Assembly (NCBI RefSeq): GCF_002934445.1
Contig: NZ_PTJE01000007.1
Coordinates: 1 to 64,000, forward strand
DNA from: Nonlabens xylanidelens
GTDB taxonomy: Bacteria > Bacteroidota > Bacteroidia > Flavobacteriales > Flavobacteriaceae
Reading direction: 5' to 3'
DNA length: 64,000 nt
Made by a program: the position numbers and the translations under genes
Shown: in pieces, positions 317 to 60,234 of the stretch
How the letters are laid out: every line of letters starts with the position of its first letter
Numbering within the stretch: the first letter of the stretch is position 1
Notes under the pieces: model-generated
What the model saw: the letters and a program-made list of their open reading frames with translations, nothing else
The model's database searches: none
What the model was told of the DNA's origin: nothing

Positions 317-575
317 TTTTTTTGGTTACATTACTCATTACTCATTACTCAATTTGATAATAGAAATATTTTGTTTTTTTTGATTTCGTTATTTTGAGTA
401 GATTACTAATCTATTCAAGAAGCTAGGATATTTTATTTCTTATTTAATGTGATTGGCTTTTGCCACTTAAGTTGTTCGGTATTTCACTTTCGCGAAAGCG
501 ATATTAAAAATTTAAACTATCAAATATTAATTTGGGGTTTATGGGTTGCTGTTATAGTTTGAGTATATATGAGCA
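317..575. other. Gene-free spacer between the IS end and the glyA terminator
   Basis: I see no supported gene here. It holds three tandem copies of a 7-bp unit, ATTACTC, at about 331-351, and a degenerate copy of the genome-wide palindrome at 487-500. The rest is A/T-rich and featureless. Confidence 0.6.
487..500. repeat. Interspersed palindrome, copy 1 (degenerate left arm)
   Basis: CTTTCGCGAAAGCG preceded by CA instead of CG. The core TTTCGCGAAA is intact. Intergenic, between the IS remnant and glyA, with no T-tract next to it. Confidence 0.85.
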
Positions 576-615
576 TAAAAAAAGCTCAAGTACGCCAGTG
601 ACGTTATTGAGCTTT
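576..615 (-). terminator. Rho-independent terminator of glyA
   Basis: The arms AAAGCTCAA (581-589) and TTGAGCTTT (607-615) form a 9-bp stem with a 17-nt loop. Read on the minus strand, the stem is followed by a run of Ts (the A-run at 576-583). It lies about 60 bp past the glyA stop. Confidence 0.75.
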
Positions 616-676
616 GATTTACTACGATCATAATGCGAGCATTGCTTTTAATAATCGATGGAAAAATATTTTTTTA

Positions 677-1948
677 CTAAGCTTTGAATAATGGTAATCC
701 TTCAGTTAGGGTGTATACTTCGTCTTCTAGTTTAGATAAATTATCTGGATTACCTGTTAAACAACGATCTATTAGATCAACGATAGTTTTCATACTATCT
801 TCTTTTAGACCTCTAGTCGTTATTGCTGCTGTACCAATACGAATTCCACTGGTTACAAATGGAGACTCTGTATCAAAAGGAACCATGTTTTTGTTTACAG
901 TGATGTGTATTTGTCCTAGTAATGCCTCAGCTTCTTTACCGTTAATGTTTTTATTTCTTAGGTCTATAAGCATCATGTGATTATCTGTACCACCTGAAAT
1001 AATATCATAACCTCTAGCAACAAATTCTGCTGCCATAACTTCTGCATTTTTCTTTACTTGAACCATGTAGTGTAAGAAATCTTCTGAAAGTGCCTCTTTA
1101 AACGCTACTGCTTTCGCTGCTATAATGTGTTCTAAAGGTCCACCTTGATTACCTGGAAATACCCCACTGTTTAGTAAGCTAGACATTTTCTTTAAGTTTC
1201 CATTTTTTAATTTCTGACCGAATGGATTTTCAAAATCTTTACCCATTATAATCATTCCTCCTCTAGGACCTCTCAAAGTTTTATGTGTAGTAGTTGTGCA
1301 AATGTGTGCATGAACTACTGCGTCCATCATGATTCCTTTGGCGATAAGACCTGCAGGATGTGCAATGTCTGCCATAAGAATTGCACCTACTTTGTCTGCG
1401 ATATCTCTAAACCTTTTATAATCTATTTCTCTACTATAAGCTGAAGCACCAGCGATAATTAGTTTAGGCTGTTCTTTTACAGCTATTTCTTCTATTTTAT
1501 CGTAGTCTAATCTACCAGTTTCTTTTTCAACACCGTAAAAGGCGTTTTTGTAGAGTTTACCTGAAAAGTTAACTGGTGAACCATGTGTTAGGTGACCTCC
1601 ATGAGATAGATCAAAACCTAGAATTTTATCTCCAGGATTCAAACAGGCATGATATACAGCTGTGTTAGCCTGGCTACCAGAGTGTGGTTGCACATTTATA
1701 TATTCTGCATTAAATAATTCTTTAGCTCTGTCGATAGCGATATTCTCTATTTCATCGACTACCTCGCATCCTCCATAATATCTTTTTCCAGGATATCCTT
1801 CGGCATATTTGTTAGTTAAAATAGAACCTGCAGCAGCAAGTACATCATCACTTACATAGTTTTCACTAGCAATTAATTCGATACCTTTTGTTTGACGGAT
1901 TCTCTCATCTTCAATCAAGTTAAAGATTTCATTATCGTTGTAAGCCAT
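677..1948 (-). CDS. glyA: Serine hydroxymethyltransferase
   Basis: GlyA is a cytosolic PLP enzyme converting serine plus tetrahydrofolate to glycine plus 5,10-methylene-THF, the main one-carbon supply. At 423 residues it has the usual bacterial length. The PLP lysine is K223 in [14 protein letters not shown]. Other family landmarks are [11 protein letters not shown] near the N-terminus, [13 protein letters not shown], and [10 protein letters not shown]. The start was placed at ATG 1946-1948 (MAYNDNEIF). A longer open frame to 1990 adds residues unlike the family and runs over the promoter at 1965-1994. The gene is divergent from fumarylacetoacetase. A terminator follows at 576-615. Confidence 0.97.
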
Positions 1949-1964
1949 TTTAAATATTTTGTTA

Positions 1965-1994
1965 CAAAAATAAGCTACATATGCTATCAACCAA
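1965..1994 (-). promoter_or_regulatory. Bacteroidota-type promoter of glyA (-7 TATTTTTG, -33 TTG)
   Basis: On the minus strand TATTTTTG (complement of 1965-1972) fits the TAnnTTTG -7 element. A TTG at 1992-1994 lies 19 bp upstream, the usual spacing to the -33 element. The -7 box is 16 bp before the chosen ATG, which supports that start. Confidence 0.7.
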
Positions 1995-2005
1995 TTCTTA
2001 TATAA

Positions 2006-2013
2006 TATATTTG
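2006..2013 (+). promoter_or_regulatory. Candidate -7 element for fumarylacetoacetase
   Basis: TATATTTG matches TAnnTTTG exactly and lies 33 bp before the ATG at 2047. I see no clear -33 TTG at the right distance. It sits only 12 bp from the divergent glyA -33 element, so the two promoters share one short control region. Confidence 0.5.
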
Positions 2014-2046
2014 AATACTACTTTTTAACAAGAAATCAAGATACAG

Positions 2047-3336
2047 ATGCCTAATAAAACAAATGACCCAAAGAGAAGTTCATGGATAGGATATAATAGA
2101 GATACTCATTTCCCTATTCAAAATATACCATTCGGCGTTTTCCTTACTAGGGATAACGTTATTACTATAGGTACTAGAATAGGCGATTATGCCATAGATC
2201 TAGGTGCATTGCAGGAGATGGGTTACTTTGAGAGTGTGCCATTAACTGACGATATGTTTATGCAGGACACACTTAATGATTTTATTTCTGACGGGAAGAA
2301 AACGTGGCGTCTTGTGCGCAATAGAATAGGTGATATCTTTGATAAAGAAAATTCTGAATTACGTGATAATAAATCTGATAGAGACCGTATAATCTTTCCT
2401 ATCGACGAAGTGGAGATGCAGTTACCTGTTTTAATAGGTGATTATACTGATTTCTATAGTAGTAAAGAGCATGCTACAAATGTAGGTACAATGTTTAGAG
2501 ATCCTGATAATGCTCTTTTACCAAATTGGTTACACATGCCAGTAGCTTATCATGGTAGATCCAGTTCTGTTATACCTTCTAATATTTCTATACACCGACC
2601 ACAAGGTCAGACTATGCCAGCAGGGTCAGAGCAACCAGTATTTGGTCCATCTAAATTAGTAGACTTTGAATTAGAAATGGCATTCATTACAACAGATGCT
2701 AATAATTTAGGACATCCAGTGCCTGTTAATGAGGCAGAGGATTATATTTTTGGTATGGTTATTCTTAACGACTGGAGCGCAAGAGATATTCAAAAGTGGG
2801 AATATGTGCCACTAGGACCATTTTTAGCAAAAAACTTTGCGAGTTCTATCTCTCCATGGATTGTAACGTTAGATGCATTAGAGCCTTTTAGAACTAATAG
2901 TCCTAAACGCGAGAAACCAGTTTTAGATTATCTAGATTCAAAAGAAGATAGCAGTTTTGATATTAATCTAGAGGTAGATATTACACCACAACAAGGAACA
3001 CCTACCACAGTCTGTAAATCAAACTTTAAACATCTTTATTGGAATATTTCACAACAACTAGCGCATCATACGGTAAACGGTTGTTCTGTTAATAGTGGTG
3101 ATTTAATGGGAAGCGGTACTATTTCAGGACCTACTAAGGATTCTTATGGTTCAATGTTAGAATTAAGCTGGAGAGGTGAAAAGCCTATCCAACTTAATGA
3201 TGGTACAGAGCGTAAATTCATTCAAGATTATGATACCGTTACCATGAGAGGTTACTGTCATAAAGGAGAACTACGTATAGGGTTTGGAGAAGTATCTAAT
3301 ACTCTTCTACCTATTTATGAGCCTAAGAAAAAGTAA
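2047..3336 (+). CDS. fah: Fumarylacetoacetase
   Basis: This hydrolyses fumarylacetoacetate to fumarate and acetoacetate, the last step of tyrosine/phenylalanine (homogentisate) breakdown. It is 429 residues, the length of animal-type FAH. An N-terminal SH3-like domain (about 1-120) precedes the catalytic FAH fold. D135 and H142 in DYTDFYSSKEHATNVG correspond to the metal Asp and catalytic His of mouse FAH (D126, H133). Also visible are VAYHGRSSS, FELEMAF and ILNDWSARDIQKWEYVPLGP. The stop codon abuts the ATG of the next lipoprotein gene. No other homogentisate-pathway gene is adjacent. Confidence 0.96.
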   Translation: MPNKTNDPKRSSWIGYNRDTHFPIQNIPFGVFLTRDNVITIGTRIGDYAIDLGALQEMGYFESVPLTDDMFMQDTLNDFISDGKKTWRLVRNRIGDIFDKENSELRDNKSDRDRIIFPIDEVEMQLPVLIGDYTDFYSSKEHATNVGTMFRDPDNALLPNWLHMPVAYHGRSSSVIPSNISIHRPQGQTMPAGSEQPVFGPSKLVDFELEMAFITTDANNLGHPVPVNEAEDYIFGMVILNDWSARDIQKWEYVPLGPFLAKNFASSISPWIVTLDALEPFRTNSPKREKPVLDYLDSKEDSSFDINLEVDITPQQGTPTTVCKSNFKHLYWNISQQLAHHTVNGCSVNSGDLMGSGTISGPTKDSYGSMLELSWRGEKPIQLNDGTERKFIQDYDTVTMRGYCHKGELRIGFGEVSNTLLPIYEPKKK

Positions 3337-4521
3337 ATGAAAAAAACTATAATTTACCTTCTGTTTACTGTCTTAATTATCTCGTGTAGTAGTTTAAAAG
3401 AAACAGAAACTGCTTTAAACCAAGGTAACTATGACCAAGCGATAGATATCGCTGTTAATAAATTAATAGAAGGTAAAACAGCCAAAAGAAATCAAGAATA
3501 CATACCTCTTTTAAAGCAAGCCTATATGAAGGCAGTTGCTCAGGACCAAATTTTATTACAAAGGTGGCAGTTAGATAATAATCCTGCTGTACTAGAATCT
3601 ATATATGAAACCTATGTAGGTATGGATCAACGACAGGATAAGATAAAACCTTTGTTGCCTTTAACCTTGATAAAAGAGAATGAAACAGTTGATTTTGACT
3701 TTGAAAATTACAATGCTAATATAATTGCATCTAAAAATGACCTTTCTGATTATTTACTTATTAATTCAAAAACGGCTCTGAGAACTGCAAATACTATAGA
3801 AGCAAGAAGTGTCTATAATGATTTGATTTATTTAGAAAAGATCAACCCTAATTTTAAAGATACTCGTGATTTAATGAAAAAAGCCCTAGAGAAAGGAACT
3901 CATTACATTATGGTAAATCTTAAAAATCAGTCACAAACAGTATTGCCACAATTGCTAGAAGAAGAATTACTTAATTTTTCTACCTATGGTATTAACGATC
4001 AGTGGACTCAATATCATAACAACGAGATAGTAGAGTTGGATTATGATTATGACATAGATATAATTATAGACCGCATTGTGATGTCTCCAGAACAAGTTTC
4101 TAAAAAAGAGTTGCATAAAGAAAGACTCGTACAAGATGGCTATATCTATGAATATGATGCTAATGGCAACGTTAAAAAGGACAGTTTAGGTAACGATATA
4201 AAAAGAGATAAATTTGTCACCATTAAGGCTAGCGTCGTTCAAAATACGCAATTTAAAGAATCAAACGTTAATGCAGTTGTTCAGTTAATTGATAATAGAA
4301 CATCGCAAACAGTAGATCGTTTTCCTGTAGCTAGTAACTTTATTTTCACCTATATCTATGGTTCTGTTTATGGGGATAGAAGAGCTCTTGATGCAAATTA
4401 TCTAGAAACTTTGAATCCTAGATCTGTGAACTTTCCGACAGATGAGCAAATGATTTACGACACCGGTGAAGACCTAAAGTATAAAATAAAACAGATTCTA
4501 AATAATCTTAATTATAATTAG
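3337..4521 (+). CDS. Lipoprotein of unknown function, coupled to fah
   Basis: The 394-residue product begins with a lipoprotein signal peptide; the lipobox is LIISC with the modified Cys at residue 17, so it is predicted to be membrane-anchored in the envelope. The N-terminal third is alpha-helical and TPR-like (for example ETALNQGNYDQAIDIAVN). The rest is mixed and contains FIYTYIYGSVYGDRRALD-like aromatic segments (about residues 335-350). The ATG follows the fah stop with no gap, so the two are probably translated from one mRNA. I do not recognise a named family. It is likely a conserved flavobacterial protein. Confidence 0.8.
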   Translation: MKKTIIYLLFTVLIISCSSLKETETALNQGNYDQAIDIAVNKLIEGKTAKRNQEYIPLLKQAYMKAVAQDQILLQRWQLDNNPAVLESIYETYVGMDQRQDKIKPLLPLTLIKENETVDFDFENYNANIIASKNDLSDYLLINSKTALRTANTIEARSVYNDLIYLEKINPNFKDTRDLMKKALEKGTHYIMVNLKNQSQTVLPQLLEEELLNFSTYGINDQWTQYHNNEIVELDYDYDIDIIIDRIVMSPEQVSKKELHKERLVQDGYIYEYDANGNVKKDSLGNDIKRDKFVTIKASVVQNTQFKESNVNAVVQLIDNRTSQTVDRFPVASNFIFTYIYGSVYGDRRALDANYLETLNPRSVNFPTDEQMIYDTGEDLKYKIKQILNNLNYN

Positions 4522-4528
4522 ATGGTGT

Positions 4529-4552
4529 GTTTCGCTTTCGCGAAAGCGAAAC
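4529..4552. repeat. Interspersed palindrome, copy 2 (longest, 24-bp perfect)
   Basis: The core CGCTTTCGCGAAAGCG at 4533-4548 is extended symmetrically to 24 bp (GTTT on the left, AAAC on the right). It is intergenic, 8-31 bp after the lipoprotein stop. It could form a hairpin but no U-tract follows. Confidence 0.95.
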
Positions 4553-4609
4553 ATGCATTAAGATCCTACTTACTTTAAAATCTTAGGATTTATTTCACAG
4601 TTCAACTCC

Positions 4610-4617
4610 TATATTTG
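4610..4617 (+). promoter_or_regulatory. Candidate -7 element for bshC
   Basis: TATATTTG is an exact TAnnTTTG match, 16 bp before the ATG at 4634. No convincing -33 TTG is seen. Confidence 0.45.
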
Positions 4618-4633
4618 AGGAGACTATAAATCT

Positions 4634-6232
4634 ATGAGTTCAAAACACCAATCTTACACGTCTATTAGATATTTTTCAGATTTAATGTCTGATTATCTCG
4701 ATCAAAAAGAACATGTAAAACCTTTATATCATCGATTTCCAAAATTAGACAATTTTAGAGATCAGATAGTTGAGAAAAAAAAGGAATGGGATCCACTACA
4801 GAATAGAAGAGAAGTCTTGCAAGACGTACTTGTGTCGCAGTACGAGAGTATAGAAGATAAAGATAAAACGCAATTAAACATTAATTTGCTGGGTAAACAA
4901 CATACGTTTACCGTAACTACTGGGCACCAGCTCAATTTATTTACAGGACCATTATATTTTTTATATAAAATAATATCTACCATTAATTTATGTAAAACAC
5001 TATCACATAAATATCCAGAGTATAATTTTGTTCCGGTATACTGGATGGCAACTGAAGATCATGATTTTGAAGAGATTCAATATTTTAATTACGGTGATAA
5101 AAAGGTAGTTTATAACCGTGATTCTTATGGTGGTGTAGGAAGGCTTTCTACAGATGGTCTAGAAGATGTTCTAGAAGTTTTTAAAAAACTGTTAGGTAAA
5201 CATGATAATGCTCAAAAAGTAATAAGTCTTTTTGAAAAAGGGTATTTAAATAATTCTAACCTTGCAAATGCGACTAGAGTAATAGCGCATGAATTATTTA
5301 AAGAAGATGGCCTCGTAATTCTAGATGCAGATGATAGCAAATTAAAAGCACTTGCAATTCCTTATTTTAAAGAAGAATTAATCTCCCAGACTAGTTTTAA
5401 GGAGGTGAGTCATACCTTAGATAGCTGGCCACATGAATATAAAGTACAAGTTAATCCTCGAGAGATTAATTTATTCTACTTAACTGATTTTTATCGCAAA
5501 CGTATAATAGAAAAAGATGGTTCTTATTCTATAGACGATACAGATATTAGATTTACAAAAGAAGAGATTCTTAAAGAATTACAAGATCATCCAGAAAGAT
5601 TTTCACCTAATGTTATTATGAGGCCACTTTATCAAGAAGTGGTGCTTCCTAATTTGTGTTATATAGGTGGTGGTGGTGAGATGGCATACTGGTTAGAATT
5701 GAAGCAGTATTTTAATTCACAACAAGTAACATTCCCTATACTACTCATGCGCAACTCTGCTTTATTAGTTACCTCGAAGCAATTAGATAAAGTAAACAGG
5801 TTAAAATTAGAGATCTGGGATTTATTTAAAGAAGATCATGAGTTAACGACGCTCTTAACTAATAAAATAAGCGACATAGAGATAGATTTTACTACTCAAA
5901 AAGAACATCTTAAAAAGCAGTTTGAAGAACTTTTTAAAATTGCAAGTTTAACAGAGCAGTCTTTTGAAAATGCGGTAAAGGCTCAAGAGCATAAGCAAAT
6001 TAAAGGTCTAGAACATCTAGAGTCTAGACTGCTCAAAGCGCAAAAGAGAAAACTTAAAGATCATTTAGATAGAGCACTGGAGCTTAAAAAAGAGTTGTTT
6101 CCTAATGATAGTCTACAAGAAAGGCAAACTAACTTTTCATTATTTTATCAAGAATACGGGCCTTCTTTTATTTCTAAAATTAAAGAAAGTCTAGATCCTC
6201 TAGATCAGAGATTTAGTGTCATAGAATTGTGA
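4634..6232 (+). CDS. bshC: Bacillithiol biosynthesis cysteine-adding enzyme BshC
   Basis: BshC adds cysteine to glucosaminyl-malate, the last step of bacillithiol synthesis, giving the low-molecular-weight thiol used instead of glutathione. The 532-residue length is typical. The signature TTGHQLNLFTGPLYFLYK (about residues 96-114) is followed by PVYWMATEDHDFEEI, and a long coiled-coil lies at about 405-490, as in the B. subtilis enzyme. No bshA or bshB is in the window. The gene has its own candidate -7 element and is followed by guaA after about 100 bp. Confidence 0.95.
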   Translation: MSSKHQSYTSIRYFSDLMSDYLDQKEHVKPLYHRFPKLDNFRDQIVEKKKEWDPLQNRREVLQDVLVSQYESIEDKDKTQLNINLLGKQHTFTVTTGHQLNLFTGPLYFLYKIISTINLCKTLSHKYPEYNFVPVYWMATEDHDFEEIQYFNYGDKKVVYNRDSYGGVGRLSTDGLEDVLEVFKKLLGKHDNAQKVISLFEKGYLNNSNLANATRVIAHELFKEDGLVILDADDSKLKALAIPYFKEELISQTSFKEVSHTLDSWPHEYKVQVNPREINLFYLTDFYRKRIIEKDGSYSIDDTDIRFTKEEILKELQDHPERFSPNVIMRPLYQEVVLPNLCYIGGGGEMAYWLELKQYFNSQQVTFPILLMRNSALLVTSKQLDKVNRLKLEIWDLFKEDHELTTLLTNKISDIEIDFTTQKEHLKKQFEELFKIASLTEQSFENAVKAQEHKQIKGLEHLESRLLKAQKRKLKDHLDRALELKKELFPNDSLQERQTNFSLFYQEYGPSFISKIKESLDPLDQRFSVIEL

Positions 6233-6324
6233 CAGTCTAGAAAGCTAATAAGAGACCTGATTTTTCTTTTGAAAACACGTTAACAAAAGTGTGTCATATC
6301 CTTAAACTTTAGATATTAAAAAAG

Positions 6325-6332
6325 TAAATTTG
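6325..6332 (+). promoter_or_regulatory. -7 element of guaA, three bases before the start codon
   Basis: TAAATTTG is an exact TAnnTTTG match and ends 3 nt before ATG 6336. Transcription would begin at or within a few bases of the ATG, so the mRNA is probably leaderless or nearly so. The TTG inside this box also looks like an in-frame start codon (6330) but is better explained as promoter. Confidence 0.6.
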
Positions 6333-6335
6333 CTC

Positions 6336-7868
6336 ATGCAACACAACAAGATATTAATATTAGATTTTGGATCGCAATACACACAATTAATTGCGCGCAG
6401 AGTAAGAGAATTAAACATCTATTCTGAAATCCACCCTTTCAACAAAGTTCCTACAGATTTAGATCAGTATAAAGCTATCATTCTTTCCGGCAGTCCTATG
6501 TCTGTAAGATCGGAAGACGCTTTTCATGTAGATCTTAATGAAATAAGAGGTAAGAAGCCTCTTCTGGGAGTTTGTTATGGCGCGCAGTATTTAGCACATT
6601 TTCATGGAGGTGAAGTAGGTGCGTCTAGCACTAGAGAATATGGTCGTGCAAATTTATCTTTTGTAGAAAATGATTTGTTCTTAGAAGGTATAGAAGCTGG
6701 TAGTCAAGTATGGATGAGTCATAGTGATACTATTAAGCAATTGCCAGAAAACGGTATGTTACTCGCTAGTACTCATGACGTGAAAAATGCAGCCTATAAA
6801 ATACAAGGTGAATCTACCTATGCGATACAGTTTCATCCAGAGGTATATCATTCTACAGATGGTAAGCAGCTGTTAGAGAATTTCTTAATAAAGATTGCAA
6901 ACGTCACACCAGACTGGACTCCAGATAGTTTTGTTGAAGAAACTGTAGATCAATTACAAAAACAAATCGGAGAAGATCGTGTGGTTTTAGGTCTTTCTGG
7001 AGGAGTAGATTCTTCGGTTGCAGCGATGTTATTGCACAAAGCGATAGGTAAAAACCTCTACTGTATTTTTGTAAATAATGGATTATTGCGTAAAGATGAG
7101 TACACTCAAGTCTTAAAGCAATATGAAGGTATGGGACTTAACGTAAAAGGAGTAGACGCTTCGGCACGATTTATGGTTGCCCTTAAAGGATTAAGTGATC
7201 CAGAATTAAAACGTAAAGCAATAGGACGTGTATTTATAGAAGTTTTTGATGATGAGGCACACGAGGTTAAAAATGTAACCTGGCTCGCACAAGGTACTAT
7301 CTATCCAGATGTGATAGAAAGTGTAAGTGCAACCGGTGGGCCTAGTGCGACTATAAAATCACATCACAATGTTGGTGGATTACCAGACTTCATGAAGCTT
7401 AAAATTGTAGAACCTTTAAAAGCACTATTTAAAGATGAAGTACGTAGAGTAGGTAAATCTATGGGTATGGCTGCAGAGCTTTTAGGTAGACATCCATTTC
7501 CTGGACCAGGGCTAGCTATTAGAATTCTAGGAGATATCACACCAGAAAAAGTAAGTATACTTCAAGAAGTTGATGCTGTTTTTATAAATAATTTAAAAAA
7601 ATGGGATTTATACGATAAGGTATGGCAAGCCGGCGCTATTTTATTACCAGTAAATAGTGTAGGAGTAATGGGAGATGAGCGTACTTATGAAAAGTGTGTC
7701 GCTTTAAGAGCGGTAGAAAGTACAGACGGTATGACTGCAGACTGGGTAAACTTACCTTATGAGTTTTTGCAGGCAACTAGTAATGAAATAATAAATAAAG
7801 TTAAAGGCGTTAATAGAGTGGTGTATGACATCAGTTCAAAGCCGCCAGCAACTATAGAATGGGAATAA
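6336..7868 (+). CDS. guaA: GMP synthase (glutamine-hydrolysing)
   Basis: GuaA converts XMP to GMP using ATP and glutamine. From ATG 6336 it is 510 residues. The N-terminal class I glutamine amidotransferase has Cys80 in [10 protein letters not shown] and the His/Glu pair in [10 protein letters not shown]. The ATP pyrophosphatase P-loop is [14 protein letters not shown] (about 220-233). The C-terminal dimerisation domain ends in [11 protein letters not shown]. An upstream TTG at 6330 is in frame but forms part of the TAAATTTG promoter element. The next gene starts 7 bp after the stop. Confidence 0.98.
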
Positions 7869-7875
7869 AAACAAG

Positions 7876-9834: not shown

Positions 9835-9836
9835 CT

Positions 9837-10238
9837 ATGACTTCTACTGTAGAGTATAAAGGTAATTTAAGATGTGAATCTACACATCTTAAAAGTGGTA
9901 ATTCATTCTTAACAGATGCGCCTGTAGATAATCAAGGTAAAGGAGAGGCTTTCTCTCCTACAGATACAGTTGCTACTGGTCTAGCTAGTTGTATGCTTAC
10001 TGTAATGGGCATTAAAGCTGCTGATATGGGGATAGAACTTTCTGGTAGTAAAGCACAGGTTACTAAGATCATGGATGCTAATCCACGACGTATTTCTCAA
10101 ATAGATGTAGTGCTAGATATGAAGGGTGGTTGTGATAAAAGAGCGCAATTAATTCTTGAACGCGTCGGGAATACTTGCCCAGTGCACAATAGTCTACATC
10201 CAGATATTGTTAAGAATATTACTTTTAACTGGAGCTAA
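9837..10238 (+). CDS. OsmC/Ohr-family protein (peroxide/hydroperoxide defence)
   Basis: 133 residues, the normal OsmC size. The two family cysteines are present: one in GLASCMLTVMGI (about residue 52) and one in GNTCPVHNSLHP (about residue 113). In OsmC/Ohr proteins these form a thiol peroxidase centre that reduces organic hydroperoxides, so a cytosolic antioxidant role is likely. The preceding gene ends at 9834 and the following ATG abuts the stop, so it is in an operon with the LysM protein and the DUF922-like protein. Whether it is OsmC or the YhfA-like branch is unclear. Confidence 0.9.
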   Translation: MTSTVEYKGNLRCESTHLKSGNSFLTDAPVDNQGKGEAFSPTDTVATGLASCMLTVMGIKAADMGIELSGSKAQVTKIMDANPRRISQIDVVLDMKGGCDKRAQLILERVGNTCPVHNSLHPDIVKNITFNWS

Positions 10239-10778: not shown

Positions 10779-10783
10779 GTTTC

Positions 10784-11299: not shown

Positions 11300-11351
11300 G
11301 TAAGATGTTTTTAATAAAGTTTAAAAATAGATAATTATTTTTTGTTTAGTT

Positions 11352-11368: not shown

Positions 11369-11450
11369 TAATTATAAATTAATAGTTAGACTGTTGGTAA
11401 CACAAAATTGTGATCATTTTCCCTTATTATTGTTTCTTAAAATTCAAAGC

Positions 11451-52582: not shown

Positions 52583-53607
52583 TTTTCTTTATACTGTTTG
52601 CCGCCATAATTTTACTGTTTTCACAACATAGATCTATTTTATTTTTATTTTTATTTTTTGTTATATTATTCTTATTAGCTGGCTATAGAGATGTAACTGT
52701 TGGTACAGATACGTTTAGATATTTAGAACATTATCAACGCATACAAAATGAGTTGAATGTATGGAGGTTAGAGTATTTATGGATTAAGGTCATGGAATTA
52801 GTATCTTTCTTTAATGGTACATTTGCAAACCTATTGCTGGTAACACATTTGATTATACTAATACCATTGTTTTTTGTTTTTGTCAAAGCTAGTAGATACC
52901 CCATACTTAGTTTGTTTTTCTATGTAACATTTTACTATTATTTCTATTCTCTAAATATAATGCGACAATCGGTTGCGGTTTCTTTGATTCTTCTGGCGTT
53001 TTATGTATTTTATTCTAATTTTAAATTGAAGTGGCTTTACACTGTTTTAATAGTTACGGGAGCTGTTTTATTTCATAATTCTGCGTTAATTTTTATTCTA
53101 GCAATTTTTATGAAATACTTTCTTGAGAAGTATGAGGGTTATTTGATTACTATTCTTGTAGGAAGCATTTTATTAGGATTAGTTTTTTTTAATAGTTTTT
53201 TAAATTATTTATCTTTGGATAAATATGAATATGTATCAAATGAGTCTGAGGCGTTTTCAATATCAGTAGTATCTATTTTAAGCAGCTTAGTTATTAATGT
53301 TATAGTTATTTTAATTAGAAACATTATCGTAAAGAAAACATATTGGTATTATTTATTTATTGCTTCGGTAGTTTTATCAAATCTATTGATCATAACGCCT
53401 TATGGTAATAGATTAGTAATGTTTTTAGGAATTACTAAACTTATATTATTTGCAAATCTAATTGATAATAATAATTTAATAAAGAAACAAAGGTCTTTAT
53501 GGATGGTATCTATGGTTGCTTATTCATTATTTTATTTTATTTTAGTTCTAGGAAATGGTGGGGTTTTACCGTATTCTAGTAGTTTTTTAAATCTTTATTT
53601 TAGCTGA
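52579..53607 (+). CDS. EpsG/Wzy-like repeat-unit polymerase
   Basis: 342 residues, about ten transmembrane helices. GYRDVTVGTDTFRYLEHYQ after the first helices and NIMRQSVAVSLILLAF, then LFHNSALIF, match the EpsG family. It probably joins repeat units on the outer face of the inner membrane (the Wzy role). Very A/T-rich. Coupled to the genes on both sides by overlap. Confidence 0.88.
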   Translation: MIFFILFAAIILLFSQHRSILFLFLFFVILFLLAGYRDVTVGTDTFRYLEHYQRIQNELNVWRLEYLWIKVMELVSFFNGTFANLLLVTHLIILIPLFFVFVKASRYPILSLFFYVTFYYYFYSLNIMRQSVAVSLILLAFYVFYSNFKLKWLYTVLIVTGAVLFHNSALIFILAIFMKYFLEKYEGYLITILVGSILLGLVFFNSFLNYLSLDKYEYVSNESEAFSISVVSILSSLVINVIVILIRNIIVKKTYWYYLFIASVVLSNLLIITPYGNRLVMFLGITKLILFANLIDNNNLIKKQRSLWMVSMVAYSLFYFILVLGNGGVLPYSSSFLNLYFS

Positions 53608-54686
53608 TGAAAGTACTTCATGTAATTAATTCTATGACTAAGGCCGGAGCAGAAATGCTTCTAGTTTCTAGTCTTTCTTGGTATGGTATTAAAAACAAAG
53701 TTGAAGTAGATGTGCTTATTCTTACGTCGTCAGACAATAGATTAGAGAAATTGATTGAAAGTTTTCCTAATGTGAAATTGATTAAAAATAAAGATTATTC
53801 TCTATATAATCCGATGTTGATTTTATATTTAAGAAGATATTGCAAAAGATATGATGTTGTTCATGCACATTTATTTCCTACTCTTTATTGGGTAGTGTTA
53901 GCAAATTATTTTAATAAAGTTAAAATTGTTTTTACAGAGCACAGTACTGATAATACAAGAAGAAAATACTTTCTATTAAAAATTATTGATAGATTTATTT
54001 ACGGTAGGCTCAATAAAATAATTTGTATCTCTAACGCTGTTTTCAAAAATCTTATTAAACATCTAGGGGCAAAATTTAAAGCTAAAACATCAATTATCTT
54101 CAATGGTGTTGATGTAGAAAAAATAGTTGATTATGAAACTGCAACTAGAAATGAATTAGGGTTAGATAAAGAAGCAGTAATACTTGTTCAAATAGCTAAT
54201 TTTCGAAAGGCAAAAAACCAACAAGTATTACTGGAAGCACTTTGTTTGTTGCCGAAAAAGTTTAATGTTATTTTTATAGGAGAAGGTCCACGTCTAGAAA
54301 TTTTAAGACAAGAATCCAAAAGATTAGGTGTAGAGCAACAAGTTTTGTTCCTAGGTGCACTAGATAATCCTATACCTATATTAAAGTTAGCTGATATTAA
54401 AATTGTAGCTTCTAATTATGAAGGTTTTGGAATTGCGGCCGTAGAAGCTATGGCTAACGGCATTCCAGTGATTGCATCAAATGTAGATGGGTTAAATGAA
54501 GTGGTTTCTGATTCTGGATTGTTGTTTGATAATACATCTCAAGATCTAACGGCTTGTATAAATAAAATAATTGATGATAGATCATTGTATGACTTACTAG
54601 TAAAGCGTGGATTGGATAGAGCTAAATTTTTTAGTATTAAAAATATGGTAGAGTCTAATAAAAAAATTTATTTTGAGATAGTATGA
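53607..54686 (+). CDS. Family 4 glycosyltransferase
   Basis: 359 residues, GT-B fold. N-terminal VLHVINSMTKAGAEMLL and DVVHAHLFPTLYW. C-terminal IIFNGVDVEKI, then VQIANFRKAKNQQVLLEAL, FIGEGPRLE and the EX7E-type block NYEGFGIAAVEAMANGIPVIAS. It adds one sugar of the repeat unit, donor unknown. One-base overlap with the polymerase gene. Confidence 0.93.
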   Translation: MKVLHVINSMTKAGAEMLLVSSLSWYGIKNKVEVDVLILTSSDNRLEKLIESFPNVKLIKNKDYSLYNPMLILYLRRYCKRYDVVHAHLFPTLYWVVLANYFNKVKIVFTEHSTDNTRRKYFLLKIIDRFIYGRLNKIICISNAVFKNLIKHLGAKFKAKTSIIFNGVDVEKIVDYETATRNELGLDKEAVILVQIANFRKAKNQQVLLEALCLLPKKFNVIFIGEGPRLEILRQESKRLGVEQQVLFLGALDNPIPILKLADIKIVASNYEGFGIAAVEAMANGIPVIASNVDGLNEVVSDSGLLFDNTSQDLTACINKIIDDRSLYDLLVKRGLDRAKFFSIKNMVESNKKIYFEIV

Positions 54687-55792
54687 TGAAGGTTTTGGTT
54701 GTTTTTTTTCTAATATTTTTTATTTCTTCTTGTAATCGGGAATTTTCTAAAGATTTGCAGATGCCAATGCATTTTGATGAAATAAGAGATAATTGGAATA
54801 ATAGAGAATTTGAAAATATTGTTAAAGAGTATAATCCAGTTGAAGTCTCCGATTATTTGCCAATTGGTCACCTTAAAGATGGGTCAGTTGATTACACAGA
54901 GTTTGTTAATAGAGCATTAAAGTTAAATAGTTCTGTAATCTTTCCTGATTTTCCTATTCTAATTAATCATACTGGCTGCAAATTGAAAAGCAATCAAAAT
55001 TTAATTTTCAGGAAAGAAAGTTTGTTGATCCTTTCACCCAATAATAAAAAAGCGTACGCTATTCTTGACTTAAAAAATATTGAGAATGTTAATATCTTTA
55101 ACCCATCACTTCAAGGAGATAGATTTCAACATTCAGGTGCTGGAGAATGGGGTATGGGAATAAGTATTAAATCTGCAAAAAATATTCTTATTTCAAATCC
55201 AACTATTAGAGACTGCTGGGGCGATGGTATTTATGTAGGCACTTACAATGGTGGTAATAGTTCTCAAAATATACAAATCAAAAATGGAGTGATAGATAGA
55301 AATAGACGCAACGGTATTTCTGTAATTAATATAGATGGACTCAATATTCAAGGTACTTTAATTAAAAACACATATGGAATAGCACCTCAATCTGCAATTC
55401 AAATTGAACCTAACAACAACAACGACAAGTTAAAAAATATTAAAATCAAGGATGTTATTACTGTGGATAACAAATTTGCAGGAATATTTATAAATACAAC
55501 TAGACTTCAGGGAGCCGTTGACTCAATTGGAATTGAAATTTTTGATTTTAAAAATTATAATTCAAAATTTGGTATAGGTTATGTGTCATTGGATAAAATT
55601 TCAACAAAAGGATTAAAGGGAGTTTTGGGTATAGATGGATTTGTAAATACGAATTCAACACAAGCGTTTCATAGTTCAAAAATAGCTAATAATGATATCG
55701 TTCAAATCCATATTAAAGTTTCCGATTCCGTAACCTTACAGAGTGTGAGCGCTTTAGAAAGTATCGAAAACTTAAGAATTAATACTAATTAA
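54683..55792 (+). CDS. Right-handed beta-helix lipoprotein within the polysaccharide operon
   Basis: 369 residues. Signal peptide with lipobox FISSC (Cys about 17). The mature part from about 90 is a parallel beta-helix (pectate-lyase-like) with Asn-rich turns: SIKSAKNILISNPTIRDC, WGDGIYVGTYNGG, NGVIDRNRRNGISVINIDG. Such folds bind or cut acidic polysaccharide. Because it is coded inside the operon (4-bp overlap with the GT4 gene), it may trim, bind or anchor the same polymer. This is inference. Confidence 0.82.
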   Translation: MMKVLVVFFLIFFISSCNREFSKDLQMPMHFDEIRDNWNNREFENIVKEYNPVEVSDYLPIGHLKDGSVDYTEFVNRALKLNSSVIFPDFPILINHTGCKLKSNQNLIFRKESLLILSPNNKKAYAILDLKNIENVNIFNPSLQGDRFQHSGAGEWGMGISIKSAKNILISNPTIRDCWGDGIYVGTYNGGNSSQNIQIKNGVIDRNRRNGISVINIDGLNIQGTLIKNTYGIAPQSAIQIEPNNNNDKLKNIKIKDVITVDNKFAGIFINTTRLQGAVDSIGIEIFDFKNYNSKFGIGYVSLDKISTKGLKGVLGIDGFVNTNSTQAFHSSKIANNDIVQIHIKVSDSVTLQSVSALESIENLRINTN

Positions 55793-56075
55793 TTATAGGA
55801 ATAGGTTTATTAACTTTTATTAGTTCTTTTGTAAAACCTAGAAGATCACTTCGTTTTAATCTTATTTTTGGAATGAATACATGAAGTATTGATTATTCAA
55901 GTTCTAATTAATAAAGAACCTCCATATAGATTTATATTTACAATTTTAAGAAATAGTTTTTAAGTAATCCATGAAAATTATTTAACAATAAATAAGCATA
56001 TTATAATTTTACTACTGATTTATTTTTTAATAATAATAAAGTAGTTTATAGAACTTAATATTTTAAGAAAATTTG
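55793..56075. other. A/T-rich gap inside the polysaccharide locus
   Basis: A gene-free 283 bp that breaks the run of overlapping genes. No hairpin terminator or clear TAnnTTTG box is visible. It may mark the join between the acquired block and the older part of the locus. Confidence 0.4.
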
Positions 56076-57212
56076 ATGAACACAAAACCTAAAATACTCT
56101 ATGTTGTGAACGTAGACTGGTTCTTTATATCTCACCGACTATGTATTGCTGAACAAGCTATTCAAAATGGTTGGGATGTTATCGTTGCAGCAGAAGATAG
56201 TGGTAGGAGTAAAGAAATTACCGCAAGTGGAATTGAATTTATACCTTTTCCATTCTCTAGGTCTGGAACAAACCCTTTGGTAGAGTTGCAGTTACTAATG
56301 AGATTTAGAAAGCTGTATAAGAATGTAGCACCTGACGTAGTACATCACATTACTTTAAAACCAGTTATTTATGGCTCTCTCGCAGCTAAGTTCACCAAAA
56401 TCCCAGCGGTAGTTAACGCTGTCAGTGGTTTAGGTTATAATTTTACTGGAGATAATCAAGGAGCAGTAGCTAAGATTATGCTCAAACTTATGAAGGTTGG
56501 TTTTAAACATAAAAACATAGGTTTTATCTTTCAAAATAAAGACGATCGTTCAGAACTTAGAGATTTAGGAGTTTTGAATGAAAAAAATAAAATATTCTAC
56601 ATTAAGGGTTCTGGAGTGAATTTAAAGAAATTCAATCATACAGCACTGCCTGTAGGAGATAGGGTTATTATCTTATTTCCTGTAAGAATGTTATGGGATA
56701 AAGGAGTTGCAGAGCTTAGAGCAGCAACTGATTTGTTGAAAGAAAAATATAGTAATAAAATTCAATTTATTTTATCTGGTCTCGCAGATAATGATAACAA
56801 AGCTGGAGTAAGCTCTACCTATCTTAAAGATTGGGAAGATGGTGAGTATGTTAAGTGGATAGGATATCAAAAGGATATGGTGGCTGTCTATAAAAATAGT
56901 CATGTTGTAATTTTACCTTCTTATAGAGAAGGAATGCCTAAAACTTTGATTGAAGCTTGCGCCATAGGAAGAGCAATTGTTACAACAGATGCTATAGGTT
57001 GTAGAGAGTGTGTTGACGAGGCTGTTAATGGATTTAAGGTACCTGTCAAATCTACTAAGGAATTAGCAAATGCTATCGAAAGACTTATCCTTAACCCAGA
57101 ATTAATGACGCAAATGGGAATTGCTTCAAGAAAAAAAGCCGAATTAGAATTTGATCAATTAAATGTGATTAAAAAACACTTTGAAATCTATCAAGAACTT
57201 CATGAATCATAA
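56076..57212 (+). CDS. Family 4 glycosyltransferase (PglA-like)
   Basis: 378 residues from ATG 56076. An in-frame TTG at 56073 directly precedes it. GT-B fold: ILYVVNVDWFFISHRL, PDVVHHITLKPVIYGSLAAK, SGLGYNF, then GSGVNLKKF and SYREGMPKTLIEACAIGRAIV. It resembles the PglA/WbpX-type enzymes that act early on undecaprenyl-linked amino sugars. Overlaps the epimerase gene by 11 bp. Confidence 0.9.
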   Translation: MNTKPKILYVVNVDWFFISHRLCIAEQAIQNGWDVIVAAEDSGRSKEITASGIEFIPFPFSRSGTNPLVELQLLMRFRKLYKNVAPDVVHHITLKPVIYGSLAAKFTKIPAVVNAVSGLGYNFTGDNQGAVAKIMLKLMKVGFKHKNIGFIFQNKDDRSELRDLGVLNEKNKIFYIKGSGVNLKKFNHTALPVGDRVIILFPVRMLWDKGVAELRAATDLLKEKYSNKIQFILSGLADNDNKAGVSSTYLKDWEDGEYVKWIGYQKDMVAVYKNSHVVILPSYREGMPKTLIEACAIGRAIVTTDAIGCRECVDEAVNGFKVPVKSTKELANAIERLILNPELMTQMGIASRKKAELEFDQLNVIKKHFEIYQELHES

Positions 57213-58134
57213 AATTATTATATCTGGCGCAACAGGTTTCGTAGGTAAAAATTTAGTTCCCTTTTTAGAGAATAAAAACTGGTCTGTTACTCCGCTTTCG
57301 CGAAAGCGAGAACAGAATAATACATCATTGAACTATGAGAATTTAACTGTAGATGATTTTAATGCTGCCTATGCATTCATTCACCTTGCGGGAAAAGCAC
57401 ATGATTTAAAGAAAACTTCTCTAGATGATGAATATTACGAAGTAAATACAGAGCTTACTAAGAGCTTATTTGACTTATTTTTACAGTCCGACTCTAAAGT
57501 GTTTATATATTTTAGCTCGGTAAAAGCAGTTGCAGATGAAGTAAAAGGAACCTTAAAAGAGGATCATCCTTATGAGCCAGGAACCGTTTACGGTAAATCA
57601 AAAGCACTCGCTGAACAGTATTTATTGAGTAAGACCATACCGTCAGATAAAAAATTATACATCCTTAGGCCTTGTATGATTCATGGTCCAGGTAATAAAG
57701 GAAATTTAAATTTATTGTATAAAGTAGTTTCTAAGGGAATTCCATATCCACTAGCATCTTTTGATAATAAGAGATCTTTTGTTTCTGTTACCACTATTAC
57801 TGAGGTAATAGAGAATTTGTTAACTAGACTACCTAATTCTGACGTATTTAATATGGCAGACGATTATTCAATTTCTACCAATGAATTAATAAAAGTAATG
57901 GCTATAGCAATTGATAAGAAACCTAAATTGATTTCTATAAATTCTACTTTCATAAAATGGATGGCTAGTGTAGGTACTTTATTGAGATTACCTTTTAATA
58001 AAGAACGATTACAAAAGCTGACAGAATCATATGAAGTAAGTAATAAAAAGATGAAGACTGTTTTAAAAATTGATACACCTTTTGATACTAAATACGGTTT
58101 AACAACTACTATACAATCTTTTAAAACTATATAA
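57202..58134 (+). CDS. NAD-dependent epimerase/dehydratase (WcaG/WbpV-like)
   Basis: 310 residues from ATG 57202. An in-frame TTG at 57181 lies deep in the preceding gene. NAD loop ISGATGFVGKNL, then FIHLAGKAHD, YFSSVKAVADE and YGKSKALAEQYL with Tyr/Lys. It acts on a nucleotide sugar, possibly UDP-GlcNAc/QuiNAc-type as for WbpV, which is often paired with WbpL as here. A palindrome copy encodes PLSRKRE at residues 31-37, in a variable loop. Confidence 0.88.
   Translation: MNHKIIISGATGFVGKNLVPFLENKNWSVTPLSRKREQNNTSLNYENLTVDDFNAAYAFIHLAGKAHDLKKTSLDDEYYEVNTELTKSLFDLFLQSDSKVFIYFSSVKAVADEVKGTLKEDHPYEPGTVYGKSKALAEQYLLSKTIPSDKKLYILRPCMIHGPGNKGNLNLLYKVVSKGIPYPLASFDNKRSFVSVTTITEVIENLLTRLPNSDVFNMADDYSISTNELIKVMAIAIDKKPKLISINSTFIKWMASVGTLLRLPFNKERLQKLTESYEVSNKKMKTVLKIDTPFDTKYGLTTTIQSFKTI
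57293..57308. repeat. Interspersed palindrome, copy 13 (inside the WbpV-like gene)
   Basis: Perfect CGCTTTCGCGAAAGCG read as P-L-S-R-K-R, just after the first beta strands of the Rossmann fold. It is the first copy after the 9.5-kb gap. Confidence 0.97.
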
Positions 58135-59096
58135 TGATCTATATTCTCGTTTTTATAGTATTAGCTATACTATCTTTTATTTATTATAAGCTAGCAGATA
58201 GATTTAATATAATCGATAAGCCTAACCACAGAAGTTCACATACTCAAATTACAATTAGAGGAGGCGGAATTATCTTTTATATAGCTTTAGTTATATATTT
58301 TATCACTAGTGGTTTTTTGTACCCTTATTTATTTATAGGAACAACGATTATAGCTTTAGTTAGTTTTGTCGATGATTTAAAACCACTACCACCATCGGTT
58401 AGGCTACCTGTACAATTTATCGCTGCAGCCATGGCTATCTATCAAGTGAGTATTGATTTTCCAGTTTTATCCCTGATTTTATTACTTATAGTAGGAGTAG
58501 GCTTTATAAATGCCTATAATTTTATGGATGGGATCAATGCTTTAACGGGAGTTTACTCGATAATAATTGTTGGTTTTTTGTATTTCTTCAATAGTAAAGA
58601 GATTTCGTTTGTTGATCCTGATTTGTTAATGTATCTATTATTTTCTTTAGTTATTTTCGGATATTATAACTTTAGAAAAAAGGCACTTTTTTTCTCGGGA
58701 GATGTAGGGAGTATTTCTATAGCAGTTATTATGCTTTTTCTAGTGTATAAATTTTATGTAGTCTTAAACGCACCAGTAGCTTTATTGTTAGTGGCAGTAT
58801 ATGGAGTGGATAGTGTTCTCACTATCGTGAGAAGAATTAAAATGAAAGAAAAAATATCTGAAGCGCACAGACACCATTTATATCAGATGTTTGTAGATTC
58901 AAAAAAGTATTCTCATATAAAAACATCTTTGATTTACGGTGGTACTCAACTATTATGTTGCGTGATTGTTTATTATACTTATTCCTTAGAGATGTGGACT
59001 CAAATATTAATAACACTAACGACATTAGTTTTCCTTGCTTTAAGCTATTTTTTACTGGTGCGTTATTTTTTAAACTTACGATCGAGAACTATTTAA
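58134..59096 (+). CDS. Undecaprenyl-phosphate sugar-1-P transferase (WecA/WbpL-type)
   Basis: 320 residues, about ten transmembrane helices. MraY/WecA family marks: DKPNHRSSH, VSFVDDLKPLPPSVRL (Asp pair), NFMDGINAL, FSGDVGSI and the cytoplasmic AHRHHLYQ motif. It attaches the first sugar phosphate to undecaprenyl phosphate and so starts the repeat unit. One-base overlap with the epimerase gene. Confidence 0.93.
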   Translation: MIYILVFIVLAILSFIYYKLADRFNIIDKPNHRSSHTQITIRGGGIIFYIALVIYFITSGFLYPYLFIGTTIIALVSFVDDLKPLPPSVRLPVQFIAAAMAIYQVSIDFPVLSLILLLIVGVGFINAYNFMDGINALTGVYSIIIVGFLYFFNSKEISFVDPDLLMYLLFSLVIFGYYNFRKKALFFSGDVGSISIAVIMLFLVYKFYVVLNAPVALLLVAVYGVDSVLTIVRRIKMKEKISEAHRHHLYQMFVDSKKYSHIKTSLIYGGTQLLCCVIVYYTYSLEMWTQILITLTTLVFLALSYFLLVRYFLNLRSRTI

Positions 59097-59100
59097 CTTC

Positions 59101-60234
59101 ATGAAAAAACGCATTCATTTATCGCCACCTGTTTATGAACAGGGCGTTGCACTTCCGATGTCTATAGACGGTGGTGTTTATGAAGCTATTAATAAAGATA
59201 TATTAACTTTTGAAAATAGGATTAAAGAATATTTAAATACAGATAAAGAGGTTGTTGCGTTAAATTCAGGTACCTCGTCCATTCATATGGCGTTAATTCT
59301 TGCAGGTGTTCAAAAAGGCGATGTAGTTTTTTGCCAGTCTATGACTTTTGTAGCTTCTGCAAATCCTATTTTATATCAAGGTGCTGTACCTGTGTTTGTT
59401 GATAGTGAAGTAGGTACATGGAATATGTCTCTTGAATTTTTAAAAGAAGCATTTTATGAATGTTGTAAAAAAGGAAAGACCCCTAAGGCAATAATAGTAA
59501 CTAGTTTATATGGAATTTCTAGTAATATGGATGCTATTCTCGCTTTCGCGAAAGCGAAACAAATACCAATTATAGAAGATAGTGCAGAGGCTCTAGGCGG
59601 TAGTTATCAAGGACAAAAATTATCAACCATAGGTGATTATGGTATTCTATCTTTTAATTTGAATAAAATTGTAACTACTGCTGGTGGTGGAATATTGGTG
59701 GTAAAAACGATAGAAGAAAAAGAAAAGGCTATATCTCTAGCAACCCAAGCTAAGGAAAACTTGAATTATTATCACCATGAAACAGTAGGATACAATTACA
59801 GGATAGGTCATTTAAACGCAGGATTAGGGATAGTTCAGTTAAAAAAAATAGGAAGTAACCTGAAAAGTAAAAAAGTTAATTTTCATTTTTATAGTTCTCT
59901 TTTTGAAGATATTGATGGTGTTATTTTGCATAAAGAGCCAAGTGATGATTTTGTATCTAACCACTGGTTAAGTGCTATTCTAGTAGACGCATCAAAAACA
60001 GGTGGTATCACTAGAGAAGATATAAGACTCGCTCTAGAAAAGGATAACATAGAATCTAGACCCTTATGGAAGCCTATGCACATGCAACCACTTTATAAGG
60101 ACTATCCTTATTATGGTAATAAAGTTTGTGAAACTTTATTTGAAAATGGATTGTGCTTGCCGTCTGGTTCTAATTTAACTGATGCAGATAGAGATAGAAT
60201 CTCTGTTTCCATAAAGACTTTATTCAGCAAATAA
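59101..60234 (+). CDS. DegT/DnrJ/EryC1-family sugar aminotransferase
   Basis: 377 residues, PLP enzyme. VVALNSGTSSIHMAL (phosphate-binding), IIEDSAEALGGSYQG (Asp for the PLP ring), SFNLNKIVTTAGGG (PLP Lys near 200). It aminates a 4-keto nucleotide sugar, possibly the RfbB product. The first 40 residues are unusual for the family: the GNE and APLG segments I expect are replaced by QGVALPMSIDGGVYEAINKD. A palindrome copy encodes AFAKA (about 149-153). Confidence 0.92.
   Translation: MKKRIHLSPPVYEQGVALPMSIDGGVYEAINKDILTFENRIKEYLNTDKEVVALNSGTSSIHMALILAGVQKGDVVFCQSMTFVASANPILYQGAVPVFVDSEVGTWNMSLEFLKEAFYECCKKGKTPKAIIVTSLYGISSNMDAILAFAKAKQIPIIEDSAEALGGSYQGQKLSTIGDYGILSFNLNKIVTTAGGGILVVKTIEEKEKAISLATQAKENLNYYHHETVGYNYRIGHLNAGLGIVQLKKIGSNLKSKKVNFHFYSSLFEDIDGVILHKEPSDDFVSNHWLSAILVDASKTGGITREDIRLALEKDNIESRPLWKPMHMQPLYKDYPYYGNKVCETLFENGLCLPSGSNLTDADRDRISVSIKTLFSK
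59541..59556. repeat. Interspersed palindrome, copy 14 (inside the aminotransferase gene)
   Basis: Perfect CGCTTTCGCGAAAGCG (TCGC left, GAAA right), read as L-A-F-A-K-A-K in the helix before the PLP Asp motif. Confidence 0.97.

Follow-up and report, generated by a model that had tools for sequence, protein, structure and literature searches.

A palindrome repeated across the window

We analyzed a 64,000-nucleotide stretch of Nonlabens xylanidelens DNA (NZ_PTJE01000007.1, positions 1–64,000; hereafter the window), through which a palindrome with the 14-mer core GCTTTCGCGAAAGC recurs. When up to two mismatches are allowed, the core matches the window 14 times. Eleven matches are exact and three carry one mismatch (at 486, 36527 and 43189), compared with a mean of 0.07 matches and a maximum of one in 100 shuffled windows. 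A preliminary description of this DNA had reported 11 intact and three degenerate copies; the pattern search bears this out and shows that its coordinates were correct within three bases. The description also gave the palindrome a length of 16 bp, which holds in part: the 14-mer core is exact in 11 of the 14 copies, but the full 16-mer is intact in only seven (palindromes of at least 16 bp with the same core). The hexamer TCGCGA occurs 14 times in the window, every time within a motif copy. This exclusivity, which had been remarked on earlier, breaks down on the genome scale, as a 464-kb sample has 32 occurrences away from any motif copy. The G+C content of the window is 33.4% rather than the ∼35% that had been assumed.

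The copies occupy varied settings, and naive open reading frame (ORF) calls place eight of the 14 in genes. The first copy (486–499; ACTTTCGCGAAAGC, one mismatch) lies in a spacer between convergent genes. The second is the longest, a perfect 26-bp palindrome (TGTTTCGCTTTCGCGAAAGCGAAACA) at 4528–4553 with the 14-mer at 4534–4547, and is located ∼12 bp past a stop codon. Exact copies also follow the pyrG stop codon by 6 bp (15957–15970) and another stop codon by ∼11 bp (47810–47823). Copies between divergent genes are found at 11354–11367 (exact), 43189–43202 (one mismatch) and 24905–24918 (exact), the last of which may instead occupy the extreme 5′ end of the 24324–24926 ORF. Within genes, exact copies are read as AFAKA at codon 13 of an ORF with a signal-peptide-like N-terminus (copy 7912–7925, ORF 7876–9834), at the N-terminus of the 32165–34414 ORF (copy 32189–32202), and at codon 148 of a DegT-type aminotransferase, the 59101 ORF (copy 59542–59555). 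Another frame is used by the exact copies in uvrA (19546–19559; TLSRKQ, codon 456), in the 29163–30476 ORF (29246–29259; TLSRK, codon 28) and in the N-terminal part of the 57181–58134 ORF (57294–57307; PLSRK), and the one-mismatch copy at 36527–36540 is read as RFRES inside a TilS-like ORF. Positions 48000–56000, where G+C falls to 27–29% and polysaccharide-type genes are present, hold no copies and fall within the longest site-free interval of the window (9.5 kb).

Abundance, lineage and spacing

The motif is a real, genome-wide, strongly selected and lineage-specific iterated palindrome. The N. xylanidelens genome (3,276,842 bases in 21 contigs) contains 664 exact copies and 738 with at most one mismatch, equivalent to one per ∼4.4–4.9 kb. 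The reversed pattern, used as a control, has no copies in this genome, and an order-2 Markov model predicts only 0.0006 exact copies per 464 kb. With 664 exact copies against approximately zero expected, the motif is neither confined to the window nor accounted for by base composition, two possibilities that the preliminary description had raised.

Extending the count to related genera, as that description had proposed, again reveals hundreds of copies per genome in a lineage-specific pattern. The closest named matches of the pyrG gene in the window also belong to Nonlabens (96% for an uncultured Nonlabens sp., 91% for N. xiamenensis and 88% for N. ulvanivorans). We counted exact copies in 299 genomes that represent 236 genera of the family, and only three genera proved rich: Nonlabens (664, 578 and 609 copies), Dokdonia (g206; 857) and a third genus, g190 (408). 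In the remaining 233 genera, 56 genomes hold 1–19 exact copies and 238 hold none. All 23 Nonlabens genomes searched are rich (288–857 exact copies), as are all 18 Dokdonia genomes (369–905). The third genus is represented by a single genome, termed G190, such that all 42 genomes searched in the three genera carry hundreds of copies. No copies were found in 23 genomes from other families of the same order, and a sample of 148 genomes from the phylum, including N. xylanidelens, contains no further rich genome, with a maximum elsewhere of four. The core is unchanged across hosts of ∼33–45% G+C. A search for other dialects in loci L054–L062 found no other 12-bp palindrome more than once, except for one pair in L062. 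In a UvrA tree of 30 genomes, the rich genera form one clade together with two motif-poor genomes (G087 with five copies and G144 with nine). The support for this clade is weak (82/76), and thus the motif may have had a single origin with later losses or may have been gained several times.

Spacing along the N. xylanidelens chromosome is even. The first 88 exact sites of contig C1 have a mean spacing of 4,502 bp, a coefficient of variation (CV) of 0.445 and a minimum gap of 1,268 bp. Simulated placement yields a CV of 0.98 ± 0.10, none of 20,000 random placements reaches 0.445, and none of the 87 gaps is shorter than 1 kb, compared with 17 expected. Further stretches of C1 and C2 give CVs of 0.36–0.49. 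Elsewhere we obtained values of 0.61 for 67 sites of the Dokdonia genome G314, 0.54 and 0.59 for G309, and 0.34 for 13 sites of G477. In G190, the CV is 0.61 for a 13-site set (P 0.07) and 0.68 for 100 sites, among which none of the 99 gaps is shorter than 1 kb where 12.5 would be expected.

G190 and G314 are single-contig chromosomes, and exact copies per 20 kb range from 1 to 5 in the former (23 stretches) and from 3 to 8 in the latter (20 stretches). These counts are under-dispersed relative to a Poisson distribution, with variance-to-mean ratios of 0.53 and 0.34, respectively. The check for origin or terminus bias suggested earlier was made with a parS-like pair as the presumed origin marker. 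Density shows no gradient with distance from this pair in either genome (Spearman −0.10, P 0.66 for G190; −0.13, P 0.59 for G314).

Approximately half of the copies lie in genes, as the preliminary description had stated and as the window itself indicates (eight of 14). Among 106 sites with up to two mismatches in the 464-kb N. xylanidelens sample, 52 are in ORFs and 54 in spacers, which make up 11% of the sequence; the split for G314 is 54 and 58 when one mismatch is allowed. Both splits are approximate, as ORFs were called naively. The in-ORF sites of the 464-kb sample use all three frames (27 AFAKA, 13 LSRK and 12 RFRES, the readings in exact copies). As remarked earlier, the copies show no link to a single class of gene. 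When the two samples are pooled, the same naive ORF calls give 1.51 sites per kb for codirectional spacers, 1.31 for divergent spacers and 0.92 for convergent spacers. Of 67 codirectional copies, 49 are nearer to the preceding stop codon than to the following start codon; codirectional copies as a whole have median distances of 30 bp from the stop and 86 bp from the start.

Symmetry, origin and turnover of the site

The site extends well beyond the core. Alignment of 168 Nonlabens sites with arms pooled reveals base preferences that reach ∼26 bp from the axis. T is favored at −10, −11, −14, −17 and −20 (A on the right arm), C is depleted from −11 to −26 (0.02–0.12 compared with 0.17) with a corresponding depletion of G on the right arm, and a weaker excess of T appears near −37/−38. 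When examined separately, the left and right arms are mirror images, the left being G/T-rich and the right A/C-rich, and the dyad spans ∼50 bp overall. Preferences are alike for 70 intergenic and 63 in-ORF copies of N. xylanidelens. Dokdonia sites retain T at −10, −11 and −14 along with the C depletion and differ at −9 and −17, and the preferences in G190 are weaker. Half-sites outside a perfect 14-bp palindrome are also more frequent in G190 (35 of 153) than in the N. xylanidelens sample (nine of 185).

Selection for a hairpin or cruciform was considered and rejected by a pairing test: the arms pair across the axis at the frequency expected for independent bases in Nonlabens (n = 170), Dokdonia (122) and G190 (80), leaving no sign of hairpin covariation. 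Symmetric flanks without an excess of pairing fit a dimeric protein that would contact the same half-site twice in double-stranded DNA, and do not fit a stem.

Outside the motif, the half-site CTTTCG seemed strikingly scarce (35 occurrences compared with 129.6 expected), but this was likewise discarded as a signal. Pentamer composition explains it, with 37.3 expected at maximal order, as does a general depletion of CGAA in low-G+C Nonlabens. This depletion is kept as a side observation: outside the motif, which itself holds the tetramer twice, CGAA/TTCG occurs at 0.41–0.50 of the maximal-order expectation in the window and loci L129–L148, and at 0.74–1.00 in nine single loci of other Bacteroidetes. 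CATG is avoided strongly, at 0.14 of expectation in G206 (L149, L150) and 0.07 in G087 (L035, L036, L180), in a manner that resembles the effect of restriction-modification.

Two informative genes, uvrA and the aminotransferase gene, indicate how copies arise. Of 22 UvrA proteins chosen from 30 and aligned, the site is present in the three Nonlabens genomes, and the other 19 have the same length with no gap. Relatives without the site read LSEKQ, LSDKQ, LTDKQ or other residues where N. xylanidelens has TLSRKQ. Thus, an acidic (E/D) or other residue was replaced by Arg through substitution and not insertion. The uvrA site is also carried by N. xiamenensis (L050). Two solved homologs of the aminotransferase align across its AFAKA site without a gap, and homolog alignments for the TilS-like ORF stop short of the site or align poorly there. 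Selection holds sites even inside genes, where it overrides a protein residue (E/D to R in UvrA). Repetitive extragenic palindromic (REP)/RAYT elements and miniature inverted-repeat transposable elements (MITEs) also comprise hundreds of short palindromes. Insertion of such an element is not supported for the motif, as no gap is seen at the site in the 22 UvrA rows or the two aminotransferase alignments; its copies arose by substitution where examined, lack a surrounding element and are evenly spaced.

Many positions are conserved over the long term, yet positions also turn over. A 16-mer in the pyrG–yidC spacer is present in six of seven Nonlabens loci, the window included, and is invariant in the six that were aligned even though the surrounding spacer aligns poorly. 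Five Nonlabens loci retain the site near the N-terminus of the 7876 ORF in orthologs of 45–87% identity, those at 45–59% among them, and in a sixth (L064) it lies in front of the called ORF, such that all six covering loci have a site at or adjoining this position. Three of four covered window sites are kept in the near relative L049. For comparisons between genera, ortholog pairs came from the stretches that had been fetched. Dokdonia and G190 share the place of the site, within two codons, in five of eight ortholog pairs with an in-ORF site (40–81% protein identity), and Nonlabens and G190 share one of 15 in-ORF positions.

Candidate functions

We tentatively favor the view that the motif is the binding site of a putative chromosome-organizing protein in Nonlabens, Dokdonia and the one further genus, a possibility that we put first without regarding it as probable. 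A symmetric, sequence-specific and probably dimeric protein would bind GCTTTCGCGAAAGC and its arms (∼50 bp) as duplex DNA and would occupy the whole chromosome, with a site every ∼4–8 kb. The benefit of each site would depend on the distance to the next, such that selection would keep at least one site per few kb and a close second site would gain little. The likely job would be organization or maintenance of the chromosome through bridging, domain boundaries or compaction. This role is ranked first because of the symmetry, strictness, uniform cover and mutual repulsion of the sites, and DNA uptake is its best rival. It is somewhat more doubtful whether the hundreds of evenly spaced palindromes are all recognized by a single dimeric protein that partitions the chromosome, or ties it, into units of 4–8 kb. 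This would constitute an undescribed chromosome-wide marking system in a clade of marine Bacteroidetes, under selection strong enough to alter conserved residues of proteins.

Known chromosome-organizing sites offer partial precedents. The parS/ParB and Noc sites are 14–16-bp palindromes read by a dimer; parS sites are few and origin-biased, and Noc sites are absent near the terminus. In contrast, the motif occurs in hundreds and shows no preference for the origin or the terminus. The preliminary description had suggested segregation among other functions, but a role like that of parS or Noc does not fit, since an ordinary parS-like pair is present separately. In a panel of 18 genomes from the family, eight motif-rich and ten motif-poor, a pair ∼1.9 kb apart is present in all eight rich and six poor genomes (14 of 18), for example at G000:C1:557961–559869. 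The canonical consensus is exact in three Nonlabens, and TGTTCCACGTGGAACA-like variants occur in many others. Single parS matches mean little, as the parS consensus with up to two mismatches yields 2–6 matches per genome and its reversed control 0–4. ParB (PF02195) has one match in seven of the eight rich genomes, two in G309 and one to three in the ten poor genomes, so the rich genomes hold no extra protein of this family. Sites for MatP (matS) and SlmA are also palindromic, chromosome-organizing and scattered over the chromosome. The motif differs in lacking a macrodomain or terminus pattern and in having at least ten times as many copies.

The best rival holds that the motif is a DNA uptake, or mate-recognition, sequence that is bound by a surface receptor during pilus-independent transformation and spread by drive through biased uptake and recombination. 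We judge this unlikely, though it deserves serious attention. The DNA uptake sequences and uptake signal sequences (DUS/USS) of Neisseriaceae and Pasteurellaceae share with the motif hundreds of copies, about half of them in genes, as well as spacer enrichment, depletion in foreign-looking DNA and reported even spacing. They also show flanking base preferences. The position of codirectional copies near stop codons, their origin by substitution, and a repulsion between neighbors that extends over roughly one fragment length all fit this explanation.

The scarcity of sites in presumably foreign DNA fits as well. In N. xylanidelens, bins below 31% G+C hold three sites in 40 kb, compared with 97 in the remaining 424 kb, and in Dokdonia bins below 35% G+C hold four in 54 kb, compared with 108 in 346 kb. 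Two closely related Nonlabens phages (70.7 kb), to be counted as a single lineage, have no copies with up to two mismatches, whereas ∼15 would be present at host density. In IMG/VR, at least 120 stretches contain the motif, and among those listed 11 hold two or three copies in 15 kb or less, with hosts unassigned. Eight low-G+C viral contigs (L208, L220, L234, L239, L264, L275, L280 and L287) have near-identical flanks around a single 14-mer, and this shared copy is probably coincidental, within a gene that a single group of viruses conserves.

Copies cluster in several motif-poor genomes, in genes that look transferable, which would also be consistent with uptake. From 18 stretches of 14 such genomes, ten motif-bearing proteins (seven genomes) were run against Pfam. 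Four match RND pump and/or outer membrane efflux families, one a P-type ATPase, one a DsbD-like family, one a guanylate cyclase domain and two domains of unknown function, and one has no family. We infer that these genes were transferred from motif-rich donors. Origin-linked, parS-like clusters in motif-poor genera were considered and set aside, because those with annotation consist mostly of metal-efflux-type genes and appear to be horizontally acquired. A 405-amino-acid ORF with two copies 933 bp apart is found in G101, G087, G215 and G078 (loci L031, L033, L034 and L036); the G078 protein, the only one run, is an outer membrane efflux protein by Pfam. A site pair at G160:C1:311231–312177 has the same 933-bp separation, and the pair looks like a travelling metal-resistance module.

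Other features speak against uptake. The motif is a perfect dyad, whereas known uptake sequences are not palindromes (PMC1939737). Near-misses are also few. Sites with zero, one, two and three mismatches number 88, 12, 6 and 13 in the N. xylanidelens sample (0.0006, 0.031 and 0.71 expected for the first three classes), 106, 6, 12 and 19 in G314, and 59, 21, 26 and 45 in G190. The resulting ratios of one-mismatch to exact copies are 0.14, 0.06 and 0.36, respectively, G190 coming closest to the pattern of an uptake sequence. The Actinobacillus pleuropneumoniae uptake sequence has 438 exact and 947 one-mismatch copies, with 86 expected (PMC1939737). From the table in that source, the ratio in excess of chance is ∼2.0 for the uptake sequence, 0.30 for the HIP1 decamer and 5.2 for Chi, which places the motif nearest to HIP1. 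Moreover, the type IV pilus/type II secretion ATPase (PF00437), the only pilus family covered, exceeds the cut-off in just two of the 18 genomes, with near-full-length matches at G000:C8:126205–127296 and G309:C28:5179–6300. It is missing above the cut-off in the other 16, including six of the eight rich genomes (G010, G242, G206, G301, G314 and G190). ComEC (PF03772), although present in all 18 genomes, is equally frequent in motif-poor genera and thus does not discriminate.

An improbable alternative is that DNA-end processing and repair use the motif as a stop or loading mark. It would then be a two-way duplex analogue of Chi, with resection halting at a protein-bound palindrome. Such a mark would limit end loss to a few kb and identify self DNA, a role also presumed for Chi, and the density of the motif resembles that of Chi in E. 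coli (1008 in 4.64 Mb; PMC1939737). Its absence from the two related phages, the G/T-rich 5′ and A/C-rich 3′ flanks and the presence of up to three copies per 15 kb or less in some viral contigs have been counted in favor. However, Chi is asymmetric, oriented and read as a single strand, whereas the motif is palindromic. The lone half-site CGAAAGC is not enriched outside the motif (nine compared with 24.1 expected in N. xylanidelens), and in G190 the counts of asymmetric half-sites by replichore and strand (13/8 and 8/6) reveal no clear bias. No nuclease is linked to the motif, though no nuclease search was made.

It is very unlikely that the motif is a by-product of the HIP1 type, left where DNA methylation or mismatch repair acts on TCGCGA or another inner word. 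The cyanobacterial HIP1 (GCGATCGC) is also a short perfect palindrome that is lineage-specific and iterated genome-wide, in and out of genes. The motif differs in its 14–16-bp core and ∼50-bp extended dyad, in being sparser (one per 4–8 kb) and in the repulsion of neighbors. Its inner hexamer is hardly enriched, since TCGCGA occurs outside the motif 32 times in the 464-kb sample where 24.1 are expected. N6/N4 methylases of PF01555, the only methylase family covered, occur in five of the 18 genomes without regard to motif abundance; N. xylanidelens is not among the five. The TCGCGA methylation system suggested in the preliminary description is not borne out by the hexamer count or by this one family. 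Of the parallels it drew with HIP1 and uptake sequences, genome-wide iteration stands; the likeness ends at the hardly enriched inner word for HIP1, and at palindromy, few near-misses and a mostly missing pilus ATPase for uptake.

Least likely of all is a transcription signal (a terminator, promoter element or global-regulator operator): although the stop-proximal placement would fit, two of four folded copies form unusually stable hairpins and one of the six copies in positions 1–20000 overlaps one of 16 terminator-pattern matches there (15953–15968), the other two folded copies are ordinary, no T-tract was found in the A/C-rich 3′ flank, about half of the copies fall within ORFs and use every reading frame, convergent spacers have the fewest sites per kb, and Bacteroidetes SOS motifs differ (GGA-N5-TCC and CTAA-N5-TTAG; PMC8565304). 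The preliminary description was right to exclude terminators on two of these grounds, the missing T-tract and the copies in genes.

Several observations weigh against a chromosome-organizing protein as the reader. None of the four families surveyed in the 18 genomes (PF02195, PF00437, PF03772 and PF01555) marks the rich genomes by its phyletic pattern, so no reader was found among them, and the protein, its dimeric form and its architectural role are inferred from the pattern of sites alone. Even spacing has been claimed for uptake sequences too (PMC1939737). Low-G+C, presumably recent DNA is poor in sites, so long site-free stretches are tolerated, as in the 9.5-kb gap of the window. In other genera, copies persist without a known reader. 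The 94 listed sites of G476 have a CV of 0.92, indistinguishable from random (P 0.25); short gaps are nonetheless scarce there (five compared with 18.3 expected). Finally, L050 lacks the pyrG–yidC copy, the L049 spacer that aligns with the 11354 region has no copy, and Nonlabens and Dokdonia share none of nine in-ORF positions.

Searches of 5.39 million open-access full texts, which leave subscription literature mostly outside, did not find the 14-mer or its 12-mer core, and the 10-mer appears only in papers with unrelated titles. In the same literature, titles and abstract openings gave no report of the motif for Nonlabens or Dokdonia, and among the papers listed for its shorter parts no title concerned it. 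The novel-motif section of a scan of 569 genomes does not list it (PMC5217627). As a phenomenon, the motif belongs with the highly iterated sequences. Bacteroidetes are not known to possess many of the familiar chromosome-organizing systems, and no nucleoid protein is known to have a comparable number of high-specificity sites whose placement follows distance and not genes or macrodomains. If the reader is an architectural protein, the system would be new. Whether the function is nucleoid organization, DNA exchange or end protection, any of these outcomes would add a system that is without report for the phylum in the literature searched. The motif may already provide a fingerprint by which DNA that has moved out of these genera can be recognized, and hundreds of precise sites per chromosome in cultured marine strains make identification of the reader tractable.

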